Assembly (NCBI GenBank): GCA_944990035.1
Contig: CALYLX010000059.1
Span: 1-64,000, forward strand
Direction of reading: 5' to 3'
Origin: Clitopilus passeckerianus
Lineage: Eukaryota; Basidiomycota; Agaricomycetes; Agaricales; Entolomataceae
DNA: 64,000 nt
The notes beneath the pieces are model-generated. The model had not been told where the DNA came from. It was given only the letters and a program-made list of their open reading frames with translations, and did no database searches. The stretch's first letter is position 1; each line of letters starts with the position of its first letter. Below are positions 2,205 through 55,830 of the stretch, piece after piece. Both the position numbers and the translations under genes were made by a program.

Positions 2205-5200
2205 CCTAGAGCTGCTATAGGGCATTGGGTTTCTTAACTGCCGCAAGCCGATTTTATTGTCCATCTACAAAAAGCCTACATAAAATAATGGACAAACTGT
2301 ATCGTATTCTGGGCTATGGGTGTAGGCGCGTTGGAATATGACTATGGAGACATGGGACGAGAACGGTAAAGACGCACAAAAGGTGCGAAGATGGCATCGC
2401 CTAATGCCCAGGTGGGAGACGAACAAATTGACGGATGTCGAATCTCGACAGCGACCGGGCGAAGGACGACATATACCACAGGGTGAAGGGTGGGCTTCGT
2501 CCTGTCAACGTGATTCAGAGGCAGCCGCTCTCGTATAGTCGAAACTGACGTTCGATGTGCAAGCGACAGAGGTGACATCATTCATGACAAGGGGCGTGAG
2601 GTCAAGCTGGGAATTGAGTAAGAGAAACCTCTTGAAGTCGCCACGGCATTTGACAAGGGTGAGCGTCGCCGTGGGTATGACGAAGATGGGAACGGTTTTC
2701 GCATGTTCAGCGTCGTAGCCCTACGTGTAATCATGTTGTCGAGGTGTCGTGAGCGATCACACTAGAGGACGGTCCGTGCCCCAGGCGATCTCGACGACAG
2801 CAGGAGGGAATGGCAGCAAGTACGAGATAGCTTCGCCTATAGCACGGGGTATTAGCAAAAGGTTTATTGATGAGATACAAAAAGTGACAAACATTGCAAA
2901 CGAACAGCTGGCGTCACCACCGCCCGAAACCGAGTTGTCCTCATTTGGAGGAGAAACACGATGTGGAATGTGGTCTCCGGCTCCTGCACCCCAAATCTTC
3001 CAATCCGGACACGGTAACACAAGGGCCGTTGCTACTGTGGGCAATCCACGGAACGGAGGCGTTTGTGTTGGGGTGCTGCCGCGAGGAGGTCGCCCTGCCG
3101 TTAAGACGGCAGCGAAGCATAGGCGGACGTGCATAGGGACGAGCATGGGCATGTGCGGCGACACCCACAAGTGTACCCTGACACATTCGGGTCGTAAAAT
3201 GCAGCACGAATGTCCACTCCTTCGGCGTTCTGAAACGGCGGCCGAAGGGCTAGACCACGCCGAACAGCTTCAAAGAAGGGTATTTTCCGAATAATATTCG
3301 CCATTGGTGTATTCGTACGCCGTATTTGCTCGAGGGAAAAAGCGCTGAACTAGCTTCAGCTCGTATATGGGGTCAGTCCTGGATTCGAGGCAGATGTTCG
3401 TCGCCAGAACCATCCTTGCCGTCACGTTGACAGGTCAGATGAAGGAGTGCCTGTTAATGGACGTCAGACGAAGGTCAATCTGAGGCAATCCATAAAGTCT
3501 TACCAGAAGACAATTCTCTGCATATTCCCCTTGCGTTTAATAAATGCATGGGCCGAAAGTTCGGGGGGTTATGTTTGCTAGAGATGCCCCACGGTCAAGC
3601 TCCACCGGTCGTGGTCGTCATGGAGCGAATATTGGAGGGCTAAGGCCTTAGGGGTATGTCGCGGCAGGAAAGTAGGGGGTGGAGCTGGAGAGCCCTTGCA
3701 GCTCCTCGAGTGTGTGGGGAGAGGCCAGGAGTGGGCTAGCGGCAGGAGGATTCAAGTCGCAGTGTGCTTGTGGTGTTGACGACAACGACATAAGGATTGT
3801 GGGGACGTTTGGGGAAAGAGCGGGGTTGGAGGTAGCCTGCTTCTGAAAATCATGGCAGTTAGTTAAGGTCTTGCCATTTCGTCGAATCAACATACCGAGC
3901 AATGGGAGGATCCTCTGAACGTGCAGGTTTCATTCGCTTTGCATCTCGACTTCAGAGGCTGCAGCTCGCTGTGCCCGTACATTCCAAGGAACCATAAGGC
4001 CAGGCAGGGAGAGGTAACGAATGAATGTCTCGTTACGAGAACAGTCGAGATGTTTGGACGACAGGAAGGGTGGTGATTGAGAACATGGTGGAACGTGTGC
4101 AAGGAGAGTGCTGACTAATCGAGCACATGGCGGGAAAGATCACTAACGGCGCCAGATTTCTCGAAACACAACCTTGATTTCACCTATTTCGATGCTGGGA
4201 CCACTTACCAGAGAGGAGGTCTTACATTTATCCAGATACTGTCGCCCAATTGTCCTGAATAGCAGAGAATAGTAGCCACTTATGTCCACAGAATCCCTCC
4301 TCCCTGGTTTCATCCCTGCTTGTCGATCACCTTATCTACCTTAATATTATCGTCCGCGAATAAAATGCTCCCAAATGAATTCATTTAATGATACCATGTG
4401 TTTTTGAAGGAAACGCATTGTTTTGAACGAGGTATGGGCACGTCGATCCCACTTGACGCCCTTCAAATTGGGGAGGCAATGAGGCACTCCGGCGAGTGTG
4501 CAGATCTTACCATTGACATCGGCGACTGGACATCCCGCCAAGCTGCCTGAGCTCTACGAATTTCGTGGGGCGATATATTCAAGATACTTATCCCCTCCAA
4601 AAGGTGCAGCCTTGTCGAAATGCCATGTGATGAAACTTGAACGCAGGGGTTTCTGGCAATCTGATCAAGAGTGCACTTGCCACGTGAGATCTGTCTCCTT
4701 AGACGCATTGCGCCAAAATTGCGTTAGAAGCTATTCTGGCCGACATTATCACTGGAAGCCTGAGATAAGGAAGCAGCTATTCCTTCCGTTTTCCTCGCAT
4801 TGACAGGTGGGTCCTATTCAGACGAACCGCCGGTTGCCGGTTGCAGCCATAGCCGTCGGCGGCTTTGCGGCTTGGGAAGATAAGCGCGCATTCAATGCCC
4901 CGATTGGGAATGGATGACGAGTCCAGACCCTGTACATCTGTACACATCTCTGATCGTCATTCGCATCTCGCCGGACGTTCATTCAAAAGACAACCACCCC
5001 GCCCACAACGTGTGCTCGACTTCTGGAGGATCTGTTCATTGAACCAAGTCTTCAGCTACCGAGGTCGACAAATTTTCTGTGTCCCTGTTTCAGTCTTTTT
5101 GCACCCTGGACCCCATTCTACTGGTTTGCTAACAGGTCGACAGGCTCGTCTTCATTCCGAACCACTGAGGGACGCAGCCAACTCTGAACGGTTCTTTGAA

Positions 5201-39200: not shown

Positions 39201-40220
39201 GAGGTAGGAGGCTGGTGAATGGCTTTATCCATCAGCTTGAAAACGCGAACGCATACTCGTAGCCGCAGGTTGCTAAACCCTAAGCCACATGGTCGTAGAC
39301 AGAGGATAGGATAGACAGGTGGCGAGGATGAGGAACAAATGAAGGTTGACGAGGTTGACGAGGAAGGGAAGCAAGGGGGAGATTCCTCGGCGGTAGAGTC
39401 TCAGCGTCAAGATGCCACAACTGCAGAGAACATCTAGTCTTGCTTCATTGTGTTCTTGCGCCTCCGTAGGATTATTTCAGTGAGTTGAACACGGAGTCGT
39501 CTGCAAGGAAGCTGATCAGGACAAGCAATATGAATAGGTAGAAGATGGACGAACCAGTACTTCATTGAGGCTCCCCGTCTAGCAGAAGTGAGCACATAGA
39601 GATACATGAGTCGTAGCTTCTGGAGCGGCACTAGAGTATAACCTCGAGGCCGTGAAGGAATAGCGTAGTCACGATATGGCGGTCAGAAGCGAAGATGGTC
39701 AATGGCCAAGGTTCGGAGTTAGCCGGTGCAACTGACCGAAACCCCGAAAAGGCTCAAATTCTCGTTTCTCCCGCCTGTTGTCAATCATCTCTGTCCATTG
39801 GCGAGCACTCTGTCATCTGACTGTTTAACTTGACGGCGAAGATCGTTCCGACCGAGGATCGATGCCTCGAAGCTGGGATTAACCCTCATACCTGAGCTCA
39901 ACGTGGAAGCCAGGTCCGTGCTAGAGACCTATGGCAAAAACTATGTACAGATACACCAAGCTCGTATCGTAGACACAAGCATTAATGCCGTCTTTTGCCA
40001 ACCGGACATGTCTTGATACATTTGGTAATGTTGCTGTCGCCTACTCATCTGCCCGTTTCTCTGCCCGCCCGTGATCCATTCCTCGCCTCCTCTATAACGC
40101 ATCTGGCCCTTATCGCTTTCTTTCCCCGGACTTACCTCACAACGAAAACTACCGTTAATATGTACGGGTTGGTGGCCTCAAAAGGCCCAAGCTTTAGGAT
40201 ACATACCTCATCGCATTTCT

Positions 40221-40658
40221 ATGTTACCACTGGATCGAAACGACATGGTTTTGGGTCGTGGTGATACAAGCCGTTGTCCTGCGAAATTTGTCACTCTTTT
40301 CATCTCATCAACATGCCCTTTACTATTATCCTCTCTTACAGACAGCCACCTCGAGGGACACGACATCCACCAGTATCACCAGTCACGGCACCTCGGCAAC
40401 ATGACTATACGAAGGGCTACGACGCTGAATGGGCGAACAACTGTCTACAACTTTATCATACCTGCGGACATGGTCACCCTCGTCAAACGCCGTGGCGAGT
40501 CCAAGAAGATGCACAATGTCCAGCTTGGCCTCGACTCCCAAGTACCTTGCCACGAATGGCATCACTTCGTCGCTCGGACACCAATTTTTGGTCTTCGTCA
40601 TACGAGAAGAGCTACCTCCAGGGAACGTCAACGGGACGGGGCCCACCCTCCGTCTTGA
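40221..40658 (+). CDS. Conserved ORF of the duplicated unit, unknown
   Basis: The coding-like part starts at an ATG near 40401: MTIRRATTLNGRTTVYNFII, followed by a lysine-rich RRGESKKMHNVQLGLDSQ. The homologous stretch in copy B (46710-46860) begins MASQRATTLTGRTTVYEYDF but then shifts frame and stops, so B is disrupted. No domain is recognised. Confidence 0.38.
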   Translation: MLPLDRNDMVLGRGDTSRCPAKFVTLFISSTCPLLLSSLTDSHLEGHDIHQYHQSRHLGNMTIRRATTLNGRTTVYNFIIPADMVTLVKRRGESKKMHNVQLGLDSQVPCHEWHHFVARTPIFGLRHTRRATSRERQRDGAHPPS

Positions 40659-41041
40659 GGCATATGGTGTCAAAGCATCTGATAGCTGAGACTATTGCCC
40701 CCAAGCCTCGACATCCATCAACTCGCTCGTCTCCAATCCAAACTTTTAGACGACACATCTTTGTCTGTGTTCACGTCTTTTAAGTTTCTCCATCTCGATT
40801 GTTCTCGGCCCCTGTCTTGTCGTGCTACAATATTCAAAAACTCTGAAGGCTTGGAATATGATACAGCTTGTCTATTATATTACGTGGGCTTGTCGTAGTA
40901 CAGAGAACGAATCCGTATGTGATGGACGCGAAATTTGACTTGTGGTCGTTCAAGGATCCCAATGCCCTACAGCGTAGTCGGGAGAATATCCTTTTCCTCC
41001 CTCAATATATCCCAAGAATCGTGCGTGTGTTTAGAAAATTC

Positions 41042-41208
41042 AGGTAACACTTATTGAGAGACTCGGTTATACTTGGGGAAAACCCAGATATATTGTTCGC
41101 AGTAATGAAATACAAGTACAATCGAGGGAAAAGGGTACACGTAACGAAGAAATCAGGGCCGCATCGGTTGAAAGCTCAATCGACGAAGAGTTCATGGAGA
41201 TAGTATGA
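41042..41208 (+). CDS. Conserved exon of the duplicated unit, unknown
   Basis: After a TTCAG acceptor the frame reads VTLIERLGYTWGKPRYIVRS, then NEIQVQSREKG, ending EEFMEIV at a TGA. Copy B has the same open frame at 47279-47434, with about 70% identical residues. The inverted copy at 1974-2115 has an early stop. Two open copies suggest this was coding, but its partner exons are uncertain. Confidence 0.38.
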
Positions 41209-41379
41209 GAATAGGATCAGGTAAGAACGAAAAAGAAAGAAGAAGGATCAAGAAAAATCCACAAAGTAGTTCAGGAAACGTCGCTTCCTCGTAAGAAGCT
41301 AACGGAAAGCCTAGAATTCTATTTATTAGAGATGTCGACTCGTTCATCGAGCTCAAAGGTCTCACCTTGCCCTAGTATT

Positions 41380-42452
41380 TCACTTGTCGTGGTGATCGTC
41401 CTTGCCGTGGTCGTCACCTTTGCCATCCTTACCCTTCCCATGATGATCATCCTTCCCGTGGTGGTCGTCCTTGCCAGGGCGGCAATGCTAAGGGGGAAAT
41501 GTTTAGATACGGCGACGGAGTCTATCGGAATAAACCCCTTACCTTCTTGCCGTCCTTCCAATAGCAGTCCTTGCCATGGTCGTCGTCGCGGCAAATCTAA
41601 AATGGACGTTAGGGGTTACATTGGCGAAAATTTACTTCGTGGCCTTACCTTCCTGCCGTCCTTCCAATAACAGTCCTTGTCATGGTCATCATTACGGCAG
41701 ATCTGAAATGAGAATATTAGGTACAACGACGACGACAGTCGTCTACCATTTACCTTCCTGCCATCCTTCCAATAACAGTCTTTATCGTGATCGTCGTGGG
41801 GGCAGACCTGTAATGGGAAGCGTCAGATACACCGGCCATATTTTGAACCTTCTACGAGCCCATACCTTCTTGCCGTTCTTCCAGTAACAGCCTTTGTCGT
41901 GATCATCATCATCCCGACAAATCTGTTATGGGAAGGACTCGTTAGCCCTAATGACTGAGTGTACAGCCTTGCCAGTTCTTACCTTCTTCCCGTTCTTCCA
42001 ATAGCAGTCCTTGTCGTGGTCGTCGTCGCGACAGATCTATTACGGGAATCTTAGATACAGAAAGAGCTGTTCTGAGCGTCTATGTCTCACCTTCTTCCCA
42101 TTCTTCCAATAGCAGTCTTTGTCGTGATCATCATCCCGACAAATCTGGAATAGATATCAGATACAGAGACGCGACAAGTAATTGATTAGAGTCCATTACC
42201 TTTTTACCATTCTTCCAGTAGCAGTCTTTGTCGTGGTCCTTGTCAGGGCGACAATACTAGAAGGAAATCGGTTAATACATCAGATTTTGTATCCTTCGTT
42301 GGTCAAAAATGCCATACCTTCTTTCCGTTCTTCCAATAGCAGTCAAGGTCGTGACCTTTGTCGGGACCGTCACCGCGAGGAAGAACTCCCGCGACAACAC
42401 TGCCGACCACGGCACTGAGGACGAGAGCGAAGAGAGGATTAAAGAACTTCAT
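41380..42452 (-). CDS. Modular secreted Cys-repeat protein, copy A (9 exons)
   Basis: Exons (minus): 42318-42452, 42200-42256, 42091-42144, 41983-42036, 41866-41922, 41754-41807, 41649-41702, 41543-41596 and 41380-41487, giving 208 residues. Every intron is phase 0 and about 55-66 nt, with GT..AG borders. Exon 1 encodes a signal peptide (MKFFNPLFALVLSAVVGSVV), a GVLPRGDG spacer, then DCYWKNGKK. Each of the next seven exons encodes one 18-19 residue module such as ICRDDDHDKDCYWKNGKK, starting at xCR and ending at KK or RK. The last exon gives HCRPGKDDHHGKDDHHGKGK and stops after about 35 residues. There are sixteen cysteines, about one every nine residues. Module acidity (DDHDKD) suggests cation binding, and the KK ends suggest possible kexin-type processing. 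No known family is recognised. Confidence 0.85.
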
Positions 42453-43729
42453 TAGAGAGAGGAGATAGAAGTTAACAGAAAGCTTGAAGCTGAAGATTCT
42501 ACGAGGTGAGCTGAGGGTTTTTATACCATTTATCGTTCTGAGGATCCAAAAGCACTCACTTGCGAGATTTGAAAAGTCAGACCTCTTTGGCCATGAATTT
42601 CGTCACATACAGCCTCACGCAGACCACTTGGAATGAGGTAGATGAGGACGTTAGCCAATCAGAAATCTTGAGAGGTTTCTGAAGTCTCGCCATAGATGGA
42701 TTCGTCCACTGAGTGGGTACTTGGCAGGATCTTGGCGAGATGTAAAAGCTGTGGTGCTAATATGTTTTGCTACTGGCTTGCATTCCGGTGAAGTTGCAAG
42801 CGGTGTTCGTCCCCCTTCTATCCGGTTATCAATCGACATTTTAGACACGTTTTTGGCAATTAGTACAGTATATCTACCACTCTTCTGGTTCACTCTAATG
42901 TGGAATGGGCGACTGGAGAGCTGACGGATCTCAGACCATAGAGTCGATCCACGAGCCAAGCCAAAGTGATCGTCAGGTACCAACTACCTCGATGATCATG
43001 AACACGCATAGGATTCTTGGAGAGAGCTTTAGGCTTGGCGAAATGTTGATCCATGTCGTGCCCGCCGTTCCGTTTCCACAGTTGCGATCGGGTACCGATG
43101 ATCCTGCACCGACCTCATCTTCGGGAGTCCTACAAGTAACAAAATAGTACTTCATCTTGATGCATCTCCTAGACATTTTATGATCTCTGTAAATCGTAGC
43201 GATGTAGGAATAGCCTTTCCGAGAAGATGGTTGAGGCTGAGCGCTGAATTTTGGGTTCGTCGCTGTTTAGGCTGGTTGGCGGTGCCTGGAATCAGAACAT
43301 GGAGCCTCAATGTAATTTGAATATGAACGTGCAGCATGGGCATCTCGGCCTTTTCGTCATAGGAGCCGCAATATTTACTCGTGTGGTCGATCTATATTAG
43401 TACAAAGCGGCGGGCATGAAGGCTGGTAGCATGAAATCACGATGGCCAACGGCCATTCGAGACCTGAAAACGTTGAGATGTCGGTGTAGCATTGTATCTG
43501 CCTTGGCGAACAGGATTTTCTTCGTGAACGAGTAATCTCTAGCAACATTCTTGAACGGAAAGAGGGTCCATAAACGAGGGGAAGAAACTCTGTGTTACAA
43601 GATTCCCGCAGAATTGGAGTCAAGATTGTAGTTTGACCGTCGAGTGTGGAGGGCAGCGTACTCGTAATTCAAAATCAGGCAGGTCTTTGATGTTCAACTA
43701 CCTAGATGGATATTTATCGGATTCAGTGA

Positions 43730-45170
43730 ATGGCACTTAGCGCGGGAACCGGCGACCCTTTAGCCGGACCCTGGGAAAATATGCACAGACGAGCGGATTC
43801 TGTGGCCAGAGGTCTTTCAGTTCTGAAGGTAAAACTGTCTCCGTTTGGCGCGCCTCAGGTAAGATCCTTTTTTTTTCAAGCTTCAATTCTCTATCCTAAT
43901 CGTATATGTTAAGTAAAGTTGACGTGTCACTATTCCGAGTTCTATCCGCGATAGGACGAGGTGTGTCTGTTGTGCGGTCGGCTCAGTAGATCGGGGTACG
44001 GGATCTTATCCGTCGGGGAATCCATCCTTATGGGGAGTCGAATTGGGTTTTAAAGGCAATACGGTGGTCTTCAGTGGGGCTGCGGTGATGAGTATCCCAA
44101 ACTAGCTTGATGGCCCGGCATTAGCAGAGGCGGAGGCCGATTGGCTACTAATCGGACAGACTTGGAATCCATCGCGCACCCAAAGGGCGCCGAGGTCCAG
44201 CTTCGGAACTGTACAAGTCCTTCGACAGGATTTCTTATGAAGAGGATTTCTCACCGGGTGCTAGAATAGCGCGTCTCCAGCTTTATGTTTACGAGAATAG
44301 CCTCGTTCTTGGGCTCGGTCACGGTATGGAATCAATCGGCCCGGTTACGATTTGTTCCAGGGCTTCAAGTCACTTACACGGAGTCCATATCTGCTAAGCA
44401 ATTCGTGTCATGTCCAGTTTTGAACCTATGAAATCTGAATCAAGTAATGTATTGGTTTCCAATTCCAACCTATATTCGTCCACAGTAAGTCCACAAAAAC
44501 CTAGGCCTCCAGCACCTACCGGAAACTTATGGGACTCGGATTCCGCCGTGCGAATGCAACGGCGCATTGGTGACAAAGTTTCTCGTTGCAGTCGGCGAGA
44601 ATTTTCTTCTATTTCTACGTGACCCTCCACTTTGTTGGAATGCGGGGTGGGATCTACACGACGGATGGGTCTAAACTCCGAAGCTACCAAGTATTGTTGG
44701 CTAAGTTCGGTCGTTCAGAGATGTTCCCTTCAGGTACATCGGGTGGAATGAGCCCTCGGTGTTCGATGCTCAGCCAGCACTGCATCTTCCACCTCACTTC
44801 TCCTAAGCCCAAAATCCCCAAGCTCCGAGCTTCCCCACCCATTCTGCCCCGGGTGAGAAATGGAGGAGCCAGTACGGCCAGTGGGCCACAGACGAAGGTC
44901 GCACATTTGCATCAGTCGAACTCGGAGATAGAGCTGATGCAAATGTCAGCTTTCCGGGACTGTCGTCAATGATGGGTGCAGCGGGTTCCGGGAAAGGGTT
45001 TTCACCTGGCCGGGCATGGAAAGCCAGCAAAGGCATTGTTACGGGTCCTGCTGCAAGTGTAGGCGCGGATGCAGATATAGGAACGTGCGTGGTGGTGCAG
45101 CTCCTTGATGTACGGCAAGAGTAGAGGGCCTCGAGGGCCCAAGCTCGACGATGTTCTCCCGAACACGCTT
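43730..45170 (+). other. Possible plus-strand gene remnants
   Basis: 43730-43858 reads MALSAGTGDPLAGPWENMHR up to a GTAAGA donor. 44148-44330 is open and protein-like (SYEEDFSPGARIARLQLYVY, then ENSLVLGLGH before a GTATGG donor). 44410-44622 reads MSSFEPMKSESSNVLVSNSN. A further open stretch near 44830-45125 includes SSMMGAAGSGKGFSPGRAWK. I could not join these into one frame, and copy B has a related but different first exon at 50800-50920. Confidence 0.3.
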
Positions 45171-45299
45171 TCATCTACTACCTGGATGACAGGTGCTGCT
45201 GCTGATGACAACGTGGATGCAGGCCGTGCACTTGGAATACCCGTTCTCGATATCAATGAATCTGATGTAGCGAGGTGATACCACGACTCCTAATCGGAA

Positions 45300-46080
45300 T
45301 AGGCAGCTTGCGTGAAGGATACGCTGCCGGGCCAGAACTTGACAGTATGATGCAATGTCAACGTGTTCATATGCCTGGGGTGCGACGAAGCTTCCAGGAG
45401 CTAGGAAAGTACGACGAGCGGGAGCTTTAGTTTATGCTGGTTTCAAAGGAGCTGATGAGGAGGAGAATGGCGGGGGAGATATAGCCTTCATCGGGTATTC
45501 GGTCTACGAGGTCGTGTGGGAGGCACAGGAGCGAGCAAGGATTGATGAAGGGATGGGAAACGGGGCAAGCAGAATGCTCAACTCGACATTGACGAAGTCG
45601 ATGAGGGGCAGGACGCAAGGGAGATATTCGACGTCGCTGCAAATTCCATGAACAGAGTGGCCAGAGTCCAATGGGGCTCGGATTTCGGCCGCGATGAGCC
45701 TGGTGGATTGACGGCGACAGAGTCTCAGCGTCTAGGTGCCACGATTACAGAGAACGTCTAATCTTGCTTCGTGGGGTTCTCGCGTTTGAGGAGGACTAGT
45801 CTACTGTGTTGAATATGGAGTCGTCTATAAGGAGCTAGATCAGGACAAGAAACAGGAATATGGTAGATGGGCGTACCACTACTTCATTGAGACTCCTCAT
45901 CTAGTAGATGATAGCTCATAGAAACATATGAGTCATAGCTTCCAGCGCCGCGTTCGAGGATGAGCTCGAGGACGTATAGAAATCGCGCAGTCGGAACCAT
46001 ATGGCCGTTCCGTGTTGTCCGAGTTAGCCGGCGCAACTGTCCGAAACTCCGAAAAGGTTCAGATTCCATTTGCCCCGCCT
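45300..46080. repeat. Dispersed subtelomeric repeat family, reference copy
   Basis: Related stretches lie at 27.8-28.0, 38.2-39.8 and 60.2-61.4 kb. Shared words include AGTCTCAGCGTC..GATGCCACAACT, TCTAATCTTGCTTC, GGAGTCGTCTATAAGG and TTAGCCGGCGCAACTGTCCGAAAC. The family flanks the left side of copies A and B, so it may have mediated the duplication. Confidence 0.55.
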
Positions 46081-47612
46081 GTGGTCAATCGTCTCAGGCC
46101 ATTAGTAGGTACTCTGTCATCTGGCTATTCAACTTGACGGCGAAGACCATTCTGGCCAAGGATCTATGCCTCGAATCTGGGATTAACCCTCATATCCGAG
46201 CTCAACGTGGAGCTAGTTCCGTGCTCGAAGCCTTTGGTAAAAAGGATCTACAACTACACCAAGCTCGAACTATAGATACAGGTATTAATGCTGTCTTCCT
46301 CCGCCCGAATACGTCTGGGTACATTTGGAGATGTTTCTGTCGCCCGCCCATTTGCCCGTTCCTCTGCCCATCCGTGATCCATTCCTCGCCTCCTTATAAC
46401 GCATATGGCCCTAATCGGTGTCTTTCCCCCAAATTACCTCATGATCACAACAGAAACTACTGTTACTATGTACAGACTGGTAGTCTCGGAAGACGCAAAC
46501 TCGAGGATACACGCCTCATCGTGTTTCTATGCGATCCACTGGAAGGGAACGACTCGGCTTTAGGTGGTGGGAATACAAGCAGTTCTCTTTCGAAGTTGTC
46601 ATTTTTTCCAATCTCATCAATAGGCGCTTTACTAATACCCACTCTCATAAACGGCACCCTCAATGGACACGACGTCTAGCAGTATCACCACTCACGGCAT
46701 CCCGACAACATGGCTTCGCAAAGGGCTACGACGCTGACTGGGCGAACAACTGTCTACGAGTACGATTTCATCATACCTCACGGGCATACTCACCCCCGTT
46801 GAATCCCATGGGGAGTCCAAGAAGATACTCAGGGTTCAATTTCCAGCCTGGCCTCGAGCCCTTTATCAAGAATGACGTCACCTTCATATCACCCGCACCA
46901 TGAATCTAGAGGAGCCACCTCTAGAGCACGCCAACGGGATGAAGCCCACCCTCCGCCTTGGTGCATGTGGTATTGGTATCTGGTCGCCGTCTTTGTCATC
47001 CGTCAACTCGCCCGTCTCCCACTGGGGCGCTTAGACGACACATCCTCGCCCCTTCCATACCTTTTCTCCATCTCGACCATTCTGGTCCCTCGTCTCCGTA
47101 TTTACCATCCGACGCCCACAAACACTCGAACCTCAAGGCCTAGAATAGGATACAGGCCGTCTGTTATACTACGTAGGCTTGTTATATGATACATAATGAA
47201 TACTATGGGATCAGCGAGAAATTTAACTTGTGGCTGTCAAGAAATTCTAGCTCTCGTGTGCGTGCTTTGAAAACCGGAATGACGCTTATTGAGAGACTCA
47301 GTCGTACTTGGCGGAAAACTCGATATATTGTTCGCAGTAATGAAATACAAGTACAATCGCGGAGAAACGGTATACGGAACGAAGTAATCAGAACAGCATT
47401 AGTCGAAGGGTCGACCAACGAAGAGTTTGTGTAGAAAGTACGCGAAAAGGGTCATGTAAGAACGAAAAAAAACGAAGGACGAAGCAAAGTCCACAACGTC
47501 GTTCAGAAAATGTCGCTGGCTCGTACGAAGCTAACGATGAGTCTAGAATCGCGGTGGTTAGAAATGTCGACTCCGTCCATTGAGCTCGAAAGTCTCACCT
47601 GGCTCGTATACT

Positions 47613-49538
47613 TTACTTGTCGTGACGATCGGGCTTGCCATCGTAATCGTTCTTTCCGTGGTCGCCCTTGCCATGATCGTCCTTGCCCTTGCCGTGGTCG
47701 TCCTTTCCATGGTCGTTCTTTCCGTGGTCGTCCTTCCCATGGTCGCCCTTCCCCTTGCCGTGGTCATCCTTGCCGTGATCATTCTTGCCATGGTCCCTGC
47801 CGTGGTCGTCCTTACCATGGCCCTTGCCGTGATCGTCCTTTCCATGGTCATCCTTCCCGTGATCTCTCCCGTGATCGTCTTTGCCGTGGCCCTTCCCGTG
47901 GCCATCCTTGCCATAGTCGTCCTTCCCGTGGTCCTTGCCATGGTCGTCTTTTCCGTGGCCCTTGCCGTGATCGTCCTTGCCATGGTCGTCTTTGCCGTGA
48001 TCTTTGCCATGGTCGCCTTTGCCGTGATCCTTGCCGTGGTCGTCTTTTCCGTGGCCCTTGCCGTAGTCGTCACCTTTGCCATCCTTCCCCTTTCCATGAT
48101 AATCCTTCCCGTATTGATCATCCTTTCCAGGACGGCAATTCTGGGAGGAAAATGTTTTAGATACAAGACGAGAGTCCACCTGTAAAGCTCTTACCTTGTT
48201 GCCGTCTTTCCAGTAGCAATCTTTGCCATGGTCGTCGTCGCGGCAAATCTAAAATGGAGTTATAGGTTAGGTTGACGAAAGCACACTTAATGGGCCTTAC
48301 CTTCTTGCCGTCCTTCCAATAACAATCCTTATCCTTGTCATCCTTGCGGCAAACCTAGGGTGCAGCTGTTAGGTGCTACAAGGAAAACGTAGAGCGATCC
48401 AATGCTTACCTTCTTCCCATTCTTCCAATAGCAATCTTTGTCGTGATCGTCATGGTGGCAGACCTGTTACGGAGAGTGTCAGGTACGGTGGTGAGATTCT
48501 GGACCGTCAACGAGCCCATACCCTCTTGCCATTCTTCCAGTAACAACCTTTGTCTTTATCATCATCCCGACAAATCTATTGTTGGACTCGTTAGCCTCAG
48601 AAACGGACTGTGCAAACAGGTCGGTTCTTACCTTCTTGCCGTTCTTCCAGTAACAGTCCTTGTCATGATCGTCGTTACGGCAGATCTAATACGAGAAGCG
48701 TTATAAACAGATGTATCTGCTATGAACGCATATGTCTCACCTTCTTGCCGTTCTTCCAATAGCAGTCTTTGTCATGGTCATCGTGATGGCAGATCTGTAT
48801 GAGAATCATTAGCCCAGGCCACCAAGTATGTCTCTATGCCAGTTCTTACCTTTTTCCCGTTCTTCCAGTAACAGTCCTTGTCATGGTCGTCGTTACGGCA
48901 GATCTAATACGAGAAGCGTTGGATACAGACATATCCGCTATGAATGTATATGCCTCACCTTCTTGCCGTTCTTCCAATAGCAGTCTTTGTCATGGTCGTC
49001 GTGACGGCAGATCTTTTTGAGAATAATTAGCTCGACCAAGTATGCCTCTATTCCAGTTCTTACCTTTTTCCCGTTCTTCCAATAGCAGTCCTTGTCCTTG
49101 TCATCGTCACGGCAAATCTGAAACGGGAAGCGTTAGACACGAAAATAATCGCTCTTAGCTTCCATGGCTTACCTTCTTCCCGTTCTTCCAATAGCAATCC
49201 TTGTCCTTGTCGTGATCGTCATGGCGGCAAATCTGGCATAGATATCAGTTACAGTGATACGACAAGTCAACGATTAATAGGTGCTTACCTTTTTACCGTT
49301 CTTCCAGTAGCAATCTTTGTCGTGGTCCTTGTCAGGACGACAATACTAGAAGGAAATCGGTTGATACATCAGCGTCCAAATGTTTCGTCAGTCAGAAATT
49401 CCGTACCTTCTTTCCATTCTTCCAATAGCAGTCGAGGTCGTGACCTTTGTCGGGACCACCGCGAGGAAGAACTCCCGCGACAGCGCTGCCGACCACGGCA
49501 CTGAGAACGAGAGCGAAAAGAGGGTTAAAGAACTTCAT
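47613..49538 (-). CDS. Modular secreted Cys-repeat protein, copy B (13 exons, long HGKD tail)
   Basis: Exons (minus): 49407-49538, 49289-49345, 49173-49232, 49064-49117, 48959-49012, 48850-48903, 48741-48794, 48632-48685, 48522-48575, 48410-48463, 48301-48354, 48195-48248 and 47613-48140, giving 420 residues. Exon 1: MKFFNPLFALVLSAVVGSAV, then GVLPRGG and DCYWKNGKK. Eleven module exons follow, nine of them exactly 54 nt, each encoding variants of ICRHDDHDKDCYWKNGKK. All introns are phase 0, so exons can be gained or lost without frame damage. The last exon begins NCRPGKDDQYGKDYHGKGKD and continues about 170 residues of DDHGKD/GHGKDDHGK repeats made almost only of Asp, His, Gly and Lys. There are twenty-four cysteines in all. 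Possible roles are cell-wall cation binding, metal sequestration, or a repeat-peptide precursor. No known family is recognised. Confidence 0.87.
47640..48125 (-). repeat. Minisatellite encoding the HGKDD tail
   Basis: Degenerate 15-18 bp units (plus strand CCGTGGTCGTCCTTGCCATGG-like) code for DHGKD and GHGKDDHGK on the minus strand. Third-base variation between units while His/Asp/Gly/Lys are kept argues that the minus-strand frame is the selected one. Confidence 0.75.
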
Positions 49539-50930
49539 CAGAGGCGATAGAAGTGAACAGAGAGCTTGAGCTAAAGAAATTACGAGGTGAGCTGAGAGTT
49601 TTTATACCGTTCATCGTTCGAAGGATCCGAAAGTACTCACTTGCGAAGTTTGAAAATACAAACCTCTTTGGTCATGAATTTCGTCACATACAGCCTCACG
49701 CAGACCACTTGGAATGAGGTAGATGAGGACGTTGGCCAATCAGAAAACTTGAGAGGTTTCTGAAGTCTCGCCATAGATGAATTCGTCCATTGAGTGGGTA
49801 CTTGGCAGGAGCTTGGCGAGATGTAAAAGCTGTGGCGCTAATAGGCTCTGCTGGCTTGCATAGCTGCAAGCGGTGTCCGTCCCCCTTCTATTCAGTTATC
49901 AATAAGCATTTCAGACCATTTCTTGGTGCTTACCGTACGCCTACGCCTCTCCTGGTCCACTACAATGTGGATTGGGCAAATAGAGAGCTGACGGATCTAG
50001 AGTTCATTCCCGAGCCAAGCCAAGTGATCGTCAGGTACCAACTGCCTCGATGATCATGAACATGCATAGGATTCATGGAGCGCCTTTCAAACTTGGCGAA
50101 ACGTAGCTAAGTGTTGTGCCCGCCGTTCATTATCCGCGGAGACGATCAGGCACCAATAATTCTGCACCGACCCAAGCTTCAGGTGTCGCCACAAGTAATG
50201 AAACAGTGGATCATCTTAATGATTTCCCTAGCCATTTTATGAGCTCTGTATAGCGTAGAGGGTGTCAATGTGTGAACAGTCTTTTTGAGAAGATGATTGA
50301 AGCTGAGCGCTGAATTTTGGGGTCGTCGCTGTTTAAGCTGGTCAGCGGTATGGTGGTGCCTGGACTCAGAACATCGAGCCCCGACGTAATTTGAATATGA
50401 GTATACAACATTGGCATCTCGGCCTTTTCGTCATAGGAGACGCAATATTCACTGGTGCGTTCGACCTATATTAGTACAAAGCGGCGTAAATAGGTGCTGG
50501 AAGCCTGAAATCACGACGGTAAACGGTGATAAGAGACTTGAACACGTTGAGATGTTGGCGTAGCGTTGTATCTTGGCGAAGAGGATTTTCCTGGTGGTAA
50601 TCTGAGTAACGGCGAATGTATACAAGATAGCGACATTCTTGAACGAGAAGAGGGTCCATAAACGAGGGGATAAAATTATGTTGCCCTAGAATTAGATATT
50701 GGGTGCGGAGGGAGGCAAGCTATGAGTAGAGATGCATGTAATTCAAAATCAAGCTGACGTTCGAGACTCGGTGAACCGGCTACATGCGCTCTACGCCGGA
50801 CCGTGGGAAGATATGCACAGACCATAGAATTCTGTTTCTGGAGGTCTCTTTGCATCAGTCTGTCAGTGTCAGTCAGGCAGATCATCTCCGTCCGCTTCGC
50901 TCAATCCGCAGGTAAGCTCATTTTCCTTCA

Positions 50931-53472: not shown

Positions 53473-54520
53473 GAATCAAATTAAACAAAGCCTCGTCAAG
53501 AATTGTTGATCGTTTTTCCAGAGCTGTCATCTTCATCATCCAAATCAGAATACCGAACGGAATTGGGGAGCAAACATGATTCCAACCGCCATATTGCTAT
53601 GATCAAAACCGAGATAGAATCATCGAATTTTGCATCGCACGTCTCAAGATATGACTATCGAGTATGGCTGGTCACGGTTTTGAACCTTTCCGAGTGGCCC
53701 CTAAACGCTGATGGGCTTGCGCCTCCAAAGGCTCGTCAAACGACTGATTGTTCGTGATTGGATTCGGATGCAGTTGAATATATTTAGACATACCAAACCA
53801 GCGAAAAGGCGGGGATTTCATAAAGCAGAGCATCTATCATTTTTGAAACCCTTACAAGGATGTTAGCCTCGCCAAAGATTACAGAACAGATGGATTACCA
53901 CGGAAACCCTGCGATGGTGGGGATTCGTGACCAGGAAAGCCCTGCATGGGATCAGGTGTGGGGGTAGGTCTACATCGAGCTGACTCAGCCAGTCCATCCA
54001 CCGGAGATATATACCGCACAACGCCAGAGCACAGACGCTCGTCGAGAGTCTCCGCCTTGAGGTCGTCTGTCAATGCGAATCATCATGCATAATGGCCCGG
54101 GTGAATAAGACTCAGCTAAACAAATCTTTACGTATCCTTGCAGGCACCGTGAAATACCACGATTAAGGGGCTGGAGCCGTAAGACATACAGGTACCTACT
54201 TCCCAACTACCTTTCCTGGGGAGTTGAACGTAACATAGCCTACAGCCTAGGCCTGGAGTAATACAGCGTTGACAGGGAGGAAGTTTTTAACGGCCTTGAG
54301 TGAGCTCTTGTATTCGGGGCAAGAAGAGCATGAATTTGGCGTTTTACTGCATTGGGCCACTAGGCCTTTCAGCATTGAGCAACAAGTTGTAATCGACGAT
54401 AGTGGAGGGGATGAATCAATGCCACCCTTCAAGACGATTCAGAGGCGGCGGCCGGGCCGGATATTTGTTTGGTCAAATGGGCAGTCTGACTATGGGGGCG
54501 TGGAGCGACCTAGCTGAGTT
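53473..54520. other. No supported gene
   Basis: Short frames (53503-53757 plus, 53985-54206 minus, 54269-54517 plus) show no motif or splice logic. Confidence 0.4.
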
Positions 54521-54540
54521 TGAAATGACCTACTGGATAT

Positions 54541-54556
54541 AGTAGGTCGACCTACT
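54541..54556. repeat. 16 bp perfect palindrome AGTAGGTCGACCTACT
   Basis: Two more GACCTACT half-sites lie at about 54526-54533 and 54572-54580, so the CTACT word occurs in a cluster over 55 bp. Confidence 0.8.
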
Positions 54557-54639
54557 CTATATGGGAACTCGACCTACTTATTTTGGACACGCTGAGAGCA
54601 CTCATTTGGCTCGGCCAGATTTGACGTGCTCTGGAGCAA

Positions 54640-54720
54640 TTGTGCGTCAAATTTAAGTAGTGAAAGTGTACACATAGCGCGCTTTCACTGTACTTAGACG
54701 CGCTCCGCGCGTTTTTGAAA
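54640..54720. repeat. Clustered hairpins, possible element terminus
   Basis: GTGAAAG (54660-54666) pairs with CTTTCAC (54682-54688). ACGCGC-TCC-GCGCGT (54698-54712) is a tight GC hairpin followed by a T-rich run. This arrangement is common near ends of fungal non-coding repeats. No matching second end was found. Confidence 0.4.
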
Positions 54721-55214
54721 ATTTTTTACCTGCTATCGGCCGAAAATTACGCAGAATAACGCATTCATGGCCAGTTTTGCACCTAAAGCCCGGATTTTTT
54801 GGCCGTTTGCGAGAATCCACGCGCCAGTCGAGTTTAATATCGATGTCTTGTAACTATTTGCGGCTGATTACAGAGTTTTGAGTCCGATATTGCACTGATT
54901 TCGGCCAAAATGAGCACTTTTGATGTGGAGGCAACTCGAGGAAGAGCTATCTCAGAACGATGGATTCATAGGCTAAAGCTTCGCAACTCAAAAAAACATA
55001 TGTCTTCAGCAGTTGGAGTATTGGGAATGCTACCAGAATAGCATTAACTCTACTCTTTCTTGTGTAATTCAGTAATTCCTTCCCAGCTTCTACCCAAGAT
55101 TGCGCACTTTACAAAGTAGCTGATGGTCTGGTAATTCTTCTCAATAGACCAAAGGCACTAAGTAGTACATCAAAGGTATTCCCGAGCCCCAATCATTGTT
55201 CGCTCTCGCAATCT

Positions 55215-55830
55215 TTAATGAATTAGAATTTCCTCTGTATTTACCTGGCCTTTCTGGCGAAGATTGGCCGTCATGACCTCGTAACTATATTTTTTAGACA
55301 CACTATACCTTGAAACTACCTGGATTTTAATGCGATTGCTTTGAGTTGTTACACAGGAAGACTGTTCGTCAACCCTCCATTCATCCGTGCGCTCAATTAT
55401 GTTGCTTGATTCGAGTGCTGGACCTTTGATCTTGACATGTCGGAGAGTATTTCCTTGAGATCTGATGCTCTCCGACGATTTCCACACGCGCTTTCTCTTC
55501 CTCTCTTTCCTCCCCTTAATTAATTAATTAATTAATTTTTCTTCCTCCGCGAGGCCCCCACCTATAGTCAGAGTGCCTGCTTTGCGACCAAACAGGCATC
55601 ACCACGGTCCGAAGACCCACATCTCTTCCGAGTCCTCCGGTGAGCATCACCCTCATCTCGAACCTCTCAACACATTCTATGCCTACGCAGTCCTGCTTAC
55701 GGCTTAGTACTACGCTAGAAGGAACTTGAAAATTCTCACCTGGGAGCACCCGGTAAGTCCACCGTGCATGCGTTCGAATCGAGCCGGATTTATGTACCAA
55801 GGTCACAACATAGGATTACGCCTGCCAGAG
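55215..55830 (-). CDS. Possible hypothetical gene split by a (TTAA)n tract
   Basis: Minus-strand pieces include HKSGSIRTHARWTYRVLP up to a GTGAGA donor (55740), then DCVGIECVERFEMRVMLTGG ending GGRKIN at 55528. Beyond the tract, VWKSSESIRSQGNTLRHVKI and DEWRVDEQSSCVTTQSNRIK run to a GTAG donor near 55321. They could be exons of one or two genes. No start codon is supported. Confidence 0.28.
55514..55535. repeat. (TTAA)n microsatellite
   Basis: Five and a half TTAA units in a row. Confidence 0.9.

Follow-up and report, generated by a model that had tools for sequence, protein, structure and literature searches.

Two tandem genes built from small exons

The window, by which we mean the whole 64,000-nt stretch of DNA analysed (contig C59:1-64000, in a genome of 64.8 Mb in 160 contigs), carries two related genes on its minus strand. 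Gene A was modelled by a script that chained phase-0 exons, starting from an ATG, and gene B is its paralogue. Both lie in a tandem duplication whose B side (39388-43593) and A side (45712-50681) are offset by about 6.2-7.1 kb (blast rows below 150 bp dropped). The features are:

47613..49538 (-), gene A, entire coding span, 13 exons, 420 aa (exon-chaining model)
49407..49538 (-), gene A exon 1, 132 nt; N-terminus signal-peptide-like by eye, then first half-hairpin CYWKNGKK
49289..49345 (-), gene A module exon 1, 57 nt, YCRPDKDHDKDCYWKNGKK
49173..49232 (-), gene A module exon 2, 60 nt, ICRHDDHDKDKDCYWKNGKK
49064..49117 (-), gene A module exon 3, 54 nt
48959..49012 (-), gene A module exon 4, 54 nt, acceptor AAG
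48850..48903 (-), gene A module exon 5, 54 nt
48741..48794 (-), gene A module exon 6, 54 nt
48632..48685 (-), gene A module exon 7, 54 nt
48522..48575 (-), gene A module exon 8, 54 nt
48410..48463 (-), gene A module exon 9, 54 nt
48301..48354 (-), gene A module exon 10, 54 nt
48195..48248 (-), gene A module exon 11, 54 nt
47613..48140 (-), gene A last exon, 528 nt with stop; closing Cys, then D/H/G/K low-complexity tail
48624..49213 (-), tandem array of exon-intron units in gene A, period 109 (48626-49213), with a 218-bp two-unit higher order (48624-49205) (Tandem Repeats Finder)
41380..42452 (-), paralogue gene B, 9 exons, 208 aa, 7 module exons (57, 54, 54, 57, 54, 54 and 54 nt)
39388..50681 (unstranded), tandem duplication containing B and A

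In the exon-chaining model the 12 introns of gene A are 51-61 nt long, and all are GT..AG. A sequence-only reading of this DNA had described 13 exons, nine of 54 nt plus one of 57 and one of 60 nt, and exon chaining re-derived exactly these counts; that account mentions neither the D/H/G/K tail nor the second gene, paralogue B. It had also spoken of microexons. The exons do fall within the 6-81 bp range given for schistosome micro-exon genes (MEGs; PMC10526429), but 54 nt exceeds the 36 bp or less that is usual for microexons (PMC11121469), hence our term small exon. Splicing and transcription of gene A and its family are predicted.

A scan of both strands for in-frame exons of the pattern AG, xC...C.W.., GT returned 18 matches, 11 in gene A and seven in gene B, and none elsewhere in the whole 64-kb window. 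Forty dinucleotide-preserving shuffles gave one match in total (mean 0.025). Plus-strand open reading frames of 216 and 201 aa lie antisense to the repetitive tail exon (window 47510-48185) and are most likely a side effect of low-complexity sequence.

The family and its paired contigs

A whole-genome search with the first exon, whose counts are lower bounds, found at least six copies, spread over four contigs and three genomic positions: C59 carries A and B, C139 carries A2 and B2, C138 carries C and C57 carries C2. Four further matches among the ten obtained (E 0.001-0.05) were the first module exons, similar in sequence, of A, B, A2 and B2. With a degenerate CYWK pattern, 59 matches were found across the genome, 43 of them inside the family loci on C57, C59 and C139. 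The 16 scattered matches were rejected as additional members and attributed to chance, as the reversed pattern also gives 16.

The contigs that carry the family mirror each other. C59 (window 35.6-54.5 kb) aligns with C139 (18.4-36.9 kb) in broadly collinear segments that are about 65-93% identical (blast rows below 80 bp dropped), and C57 aligns likewise with C138 (88.8% over 5.7 kb, 82.4% over 2.5 kb). The 5-kb flank of gene A matches C139 and is otherwise mostly multi-copy repeat, with minor short matches to C97 and C157 among the 40 of 60 candidates scored; the flank of C2 matches C138, with minor repeats on C8 and C114. A single locus assembled twice was rejected, since the paired contigs differ by at least several per cent across long collinear flanks. 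We infer that the fungus is heterozygous and that each pair represents its two nuclear haplotypes. STE3-type pheromone receptors were found at several loci, some on mutually mirroring contigs (e.g., C66 and C69), which we take to be in keeping with a basidiomycete. A multi-copy repeat of about 1.1 kb at window 54480-55585, with copies elsewhere up to 97% identical, is missing at the collinear C139 site (between 36877 and 36898), which would suit an insertion in one haplotype only, perhaps of a solo LTR.

The reading frame is open in all six copies, and a TATA element lies 68-73 nt upstream of the ATG in each. The 44 introns of the family are 51-61 nt long; 43 start with GT and one with GC, the latter being a B2 intron (L009:5535-5585) that has GT in allele B. 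Intron retention would break the frame in 38 of the 44 and leave it intact in six, and an unspliced reading was rejected on this ground. Between B and B2 the modules gave dN 0.022 and dS 0.338, and the first exons 0.010 and 0.069; for the first exons of A and A2 the values were 0.010 and 0.334, and for those of C and C2 0.060 and 0.105, a weaker contrast. In the dN/dS analysis 296 of 435 exon pairs were dropped because dS was undefined or saturated. At sequence level, the B/B2 module values show purifying selection on the modules. Over all pairs of the 38 modules, mean exon identity was 0.79, compared with 0.58 for the following introns and 0.48 for a shuffled-intron null.

Repeat anatomy and the predicted product

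Each repeat consists of two 9-residue halves, C-YWKNGKKI and C-RHDDHDKD. Cysteine spacing is constant across exon junctions: the segment CYWKNGKK/IC (slash at the junction) is a C-x8-C with exactly 8 residues between cysteines at 44/44 junctions. Within exons (n = 38) the gap is 8 residues in 30, 9 in seven and 10 in one. In the residue-column table, which left out the eight module exons that are not 54 nt long, C2, D5, K9, C11, Y12, W13 and K14 are invariant among the remaining 30 of 38, and G16 is present in 29 of these 30. Trp occupies hairpin position 3 in 43/44 cases, gene C being without this otherwise constant residue. All six proteins have an even number of cysteines (24, 16, 26, 16, 2 and 4) because exon 1 and the last exon contribute one apiece. 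Gene C, which has two exons and no module exon, keeps exactly two cysteines, a pair that would make a single hairpin across its sole intron.

In the sequence-only reading each exon encodes one module. Since the length-fixed C-x8-C straddles every junction (44/44), the exon is probably not the structural module but out of phase with it; this suggests that repeats correspond to exons and hairpins to junctions, with each intron splitting a disulphide-closed beta-hairpin. We lean towards a secreted and probably elongated chain of such hairpins, with Asp/His linkers and usually a D/H/G/K tail, for which multivalent binding would be the likeliest role. The hairpins would mostly read C-Y-W-K-N-G-K-K-[IVYHN]-C and turn at NG, and Asp/His-rich stretches of 8-10 residues would link them. 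Each would be half-encoded by either neighbouring exon, the phase-0 intron falling between the turn and the last strand residues. A cysteine recurs nearly every 9 residues, and pairs that close the linkers could form in place of the hairpin pairs. Secretion, the hairpin fold, disulphide pairing, metal binding and location are predictions from sequence, and the signal peptide was judged by eye from MKFFNPLFALVLSAVVGSAVA.

The layout resembles that of the designed, disulphide-constrained hairpin peptide bhpW, CTWEGNKLTC (template 1N09; PMC2427033): both segments have 10 residues, with Cys at positions 1 and 10 and Trp at position 3, and a mid-peptide turn, which is predicted for the family segment, is by our own reading part of this layout. 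The bhpW peptides differ in being isolated synthetic peptides with a central GN, as opposed to NG here, and the likeness is one of layout, not of relatedness.

As to function, the hairpin chain may bind multivalently at the cell wall or outside the cell, where repeat number would set valency. Our first guess for the ligand is putative divalent metal ion binding through the Asp/His linkers and tail. The tail of gene A holds 29 His and 47 Asp in 175 residues; if a cut at residue 22 is assumed, the remaining 398 residues of the protein contain 98 Asp, 44 His and 88 Lys. The net charge of the module region, however, is +1.3 to +10.8 in A, A2, B and B2, owing to lysines, and the tails of two of the six members (B2 and C2) are slightly positive; the positive module region and these two tails speak somewhat against simple cation binding. 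C and C2 are mostly tail, with one or two hairpins, and B2 is the reverse: its tail has 11 aa, and the D/H/G/K tail is dispensable in some members. On contig C83 (L013, ~4465-5030) a different secreted-looking gene has a DYDHGKDKDHGK-type tract that resembles the gene A tail, with a hydrophobic region after it, and such D/H/G/K tracts may be found again in unrelated secreted proteins of this fungus.

The same junctions permit another product, which we consider possible but rather unlikely: a Kex2-processed repeat protein (KEP), cut in the Golgi after KK and trimmed of the KK, so that each exon yields one near-identical 16-residue peptide of the ICRDDDHDKDCYWKNG type. The peptide would carry an internal C-x8-C disulphide and act in signalling or on a host. 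A dibasic pair sits at 42 of 44 junctions (36 KK, five RK and one KR), with just one pair elsewhere in the six proteins, which places the predicted Kex2 cut sites at the exon ends. The published KEP rule asks for three or more tandem repeats, each 8 aa or longer, between KR, KK, RK or RR (PMC7329392); by inspection it describes A, A2, B and B2 but not C or C2. Work on KEPs in the agaricomycete C. cinerea names KK among dikaritin separators (PMC9769878). KEPs, dikaritin precursors included, share with this family a start that is signal-peptide-like by eye, near-identical short repeats and a dibasic pair at nearly every repeat end. The family differs from them in that its separators are mostly KK, which Kex2 uses less than KR or RR (PMC6339444), and in a fixed Cys spacing that crosses the would-be cut instead of lying within the peptide. 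Also against the KEP reading, variant dibasic sites favour RK (5) over KR (1), several of them probably shared by descent, and two sites are lost. Furthermore, the terminal fragments would each bear an orphan Cys that all six genes nonetheless keep, and C and C2 have no such repeat array.

Homology searches covered about 5.8 billion predicted proteins, a space in which fungal proteomes may be thinly represented, so that absence from it is weak evidence. The exon-1 open reading frame had no candidate there. Gene B gave 19 matches of 1266 candidates at E <= 0.01, and residues 28-272 of A2 gave at least 53 with the best 7984 word-sharing candidates scored; the best E-values were 6e-9 and 1e-14. 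Seven of the matches, examined whole (P0001, P0003, P0006, P0007 and P0020-P0022), are YWKNGK-repeat proteins that have the strings CYWKNGK or YWKNGK in common with the gene A family. Their period is different: by eye, successive strings are separated by tens of residues that include GNDVYVAG-type segments. We rejected the matches as homologues on content, not score, on the strength of this period and of a pattern scan in which none of the 59 retrieved proteins had the module. The few matches with a named organism are bacterial. A CxWx[NDH]GxxxC segment was found in one of the 59 retrieved proteins (P0034). Matches to PDB sequences were weak (designed TIM barrels and a tryptophan oxidase) and offered no convincing relative. 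The claim that the module and layout belong to no described fungal family is borne out in part. The module occurred in 0/59 retrieved proteins and had no Pfam match above gathering score when A, B and C2 were scanned (A and C2, 0 families; B, best E 0.8, below the cut-off), but the layout fits the published KEP definition by inspection (PMC7329392).

Repeat-number variation and known systems

As assembled, the positional alleles have 11 (A) and 12 (A2), 7 (B) and 7 (B2), and 0 (C) and 1 (C2) module exons; the counts are read from an assembly in which repeats could be collapsed or misplaced. Last exons measure 528/273 nt in A/A2, 108/36 nt in B/B2 and 429/309 nt in C/C2, so that tail length differs in all three pairs. 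Within gene A, units 3-4 and 5-6 are 87% identical across 218 bp, introns included. This two-unit duplication and the 11/12 and 0/1 alleles bear out the proposal of the sequence-only reading that there is one repeat per phase-0 exon and that the exon-intron unit is gained or lost.

Intron comparisons followed the same units. B and B2 introns match one to one (0.77-0.93). Those of A and A2 match in order at the ends alone (first unit 0.71, last 0.83); in the interior the better matches pair units at different places in the array, such as unit 4 of A with unit 7 of A2 (0.78). In its first two units A2 is closer to B (0.95 and 0.89) than to A (0.71 and 0.64), which suggests that the tandem genes exchanged sequence. 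By eye, the last exon of gene C (L011:4403-4831, compared with C2 at L012:4791-5211) resembles the start of the C2 module exon joined directly to the tail, a form that would result if a deletion took the remainder of a C2-like module exon together with its intron.

An exon with its following intron spans 105-115 nt in gene A, and 9 of the 11 units are not multiples of three. If there were no introns, duplicating such a unit would in most cases shift the frame, and it is splicing that makes gain or loss of units frame-neutral. Tentatively, and as something we hold to be less than an even prospect, we propose that introns buffer the expansion of the repeat: duplications and deletions that fall in introns would change repeat count harmlessly, and the two nuclei would supply length variants of an outward-facing protein, possibly multiplied by exon skipping. 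In the hairpin-chain reading that we favour, copy number would shift by recombination between the ~109-bp exon-intron units, and the frame would stay open and all cysteines paired whatever the number of whole exons between first and last.

It is very improbable, in our estimate, that the array is a mere minisatellite by-product, an unstable stretch of DNA whose repeat number has little or no selected function. The Tandem Repeats Finder periods of 109 and 218 bp would fit such an origin, as would the differences in module number in two of three positional allele pairs and in tail length in all three. dN is nevertheless far below dS in the B/B2 modules and in exon 1 of A/A2, frames are open in 6/6 copies, and exons are better conserved than adjoining introns, although none of this shows that repeat number matters.

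Variety might itself be the function, if similar phase-0 exons were skipped to give a set of secreted isoforms, an idea that comes from schistosome micro-exon genes. Each of the 11 internal exons of gene A can be skipped singly in frame, and one A acceptor is AAG and one B2 donor GC. Length variation is already present in the DNA, however, and we judge this splicing-based reading improbable.

Exon-per-repeat genes are well known in animals. Collagen exons of 54 nt match in size, and a collagen-type origin was rejected, there being no Gly-X-Y. Many-small-exon secreted genes of one phase or of triplet length are already known in animals, and the nearest layout precedents found are schistosome and aphid genes. 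Schistosome MEGs likewise encode secreted proteins on many small exons, mostly multiples of three (PMC10526429), and very short triplet exons are seen here too (11/11 internal A exons of 54, 57 or 60 nt). They differ in having introns of 100 to almost 5000 bp (PMC10526429), against 51-61 nt in all 44 family introns. In addition, MEG exons are stated to be 15 bp long in the large majority of cases, and the genes belong to animal parasites, the comparison being by description alone (PMC10526429). The same source cites tandemly repeated exons encoding 81-base repeats (Davis 1988, in PMC10526429). Aphid bicycle genes, which are candidate effectors, have many unusually small internal exons of one phase; theirs is phase 2, with CYC motifs, in insects (PMC9168663), whereas all exons here are modelled as phase 0.

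Among fungi, the SP7-like effectors of arbuscular mycorrhizal fungi are secreted proteins with hydrophilic tandem repeats, and have a conserved intron before the first repeat (PMC11333574), whereas gene A has an intron at every repeat boundary. Functional microexons were stated in 2024 not to have been described in filamentous fungi before that study's own case (PMC11121469), which cites limited earlier fungal microexon work. In the available portions of the fungal literature on microexons, exon-per-repeat genes and tandem exons we found no such fungal family, and the word 'exon' has 0 occurrences in the available main text of the KEP studies (PMC7329392, PMC9769878 and PMC6339444).

Genes of this class are likely to be mis-modelled by annotation. 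Whether the product is a peptide precursor or an intact hairpin chain is a clean either/or question. If intron-buffered expansion is true, indels of any length that end in introns would change the repeats of a secreted protein without damage to frame or disulphides, and a fungal array whose exon number differs between alleles would offer a tractable natural test of intron-aided expansion of coding repeats.
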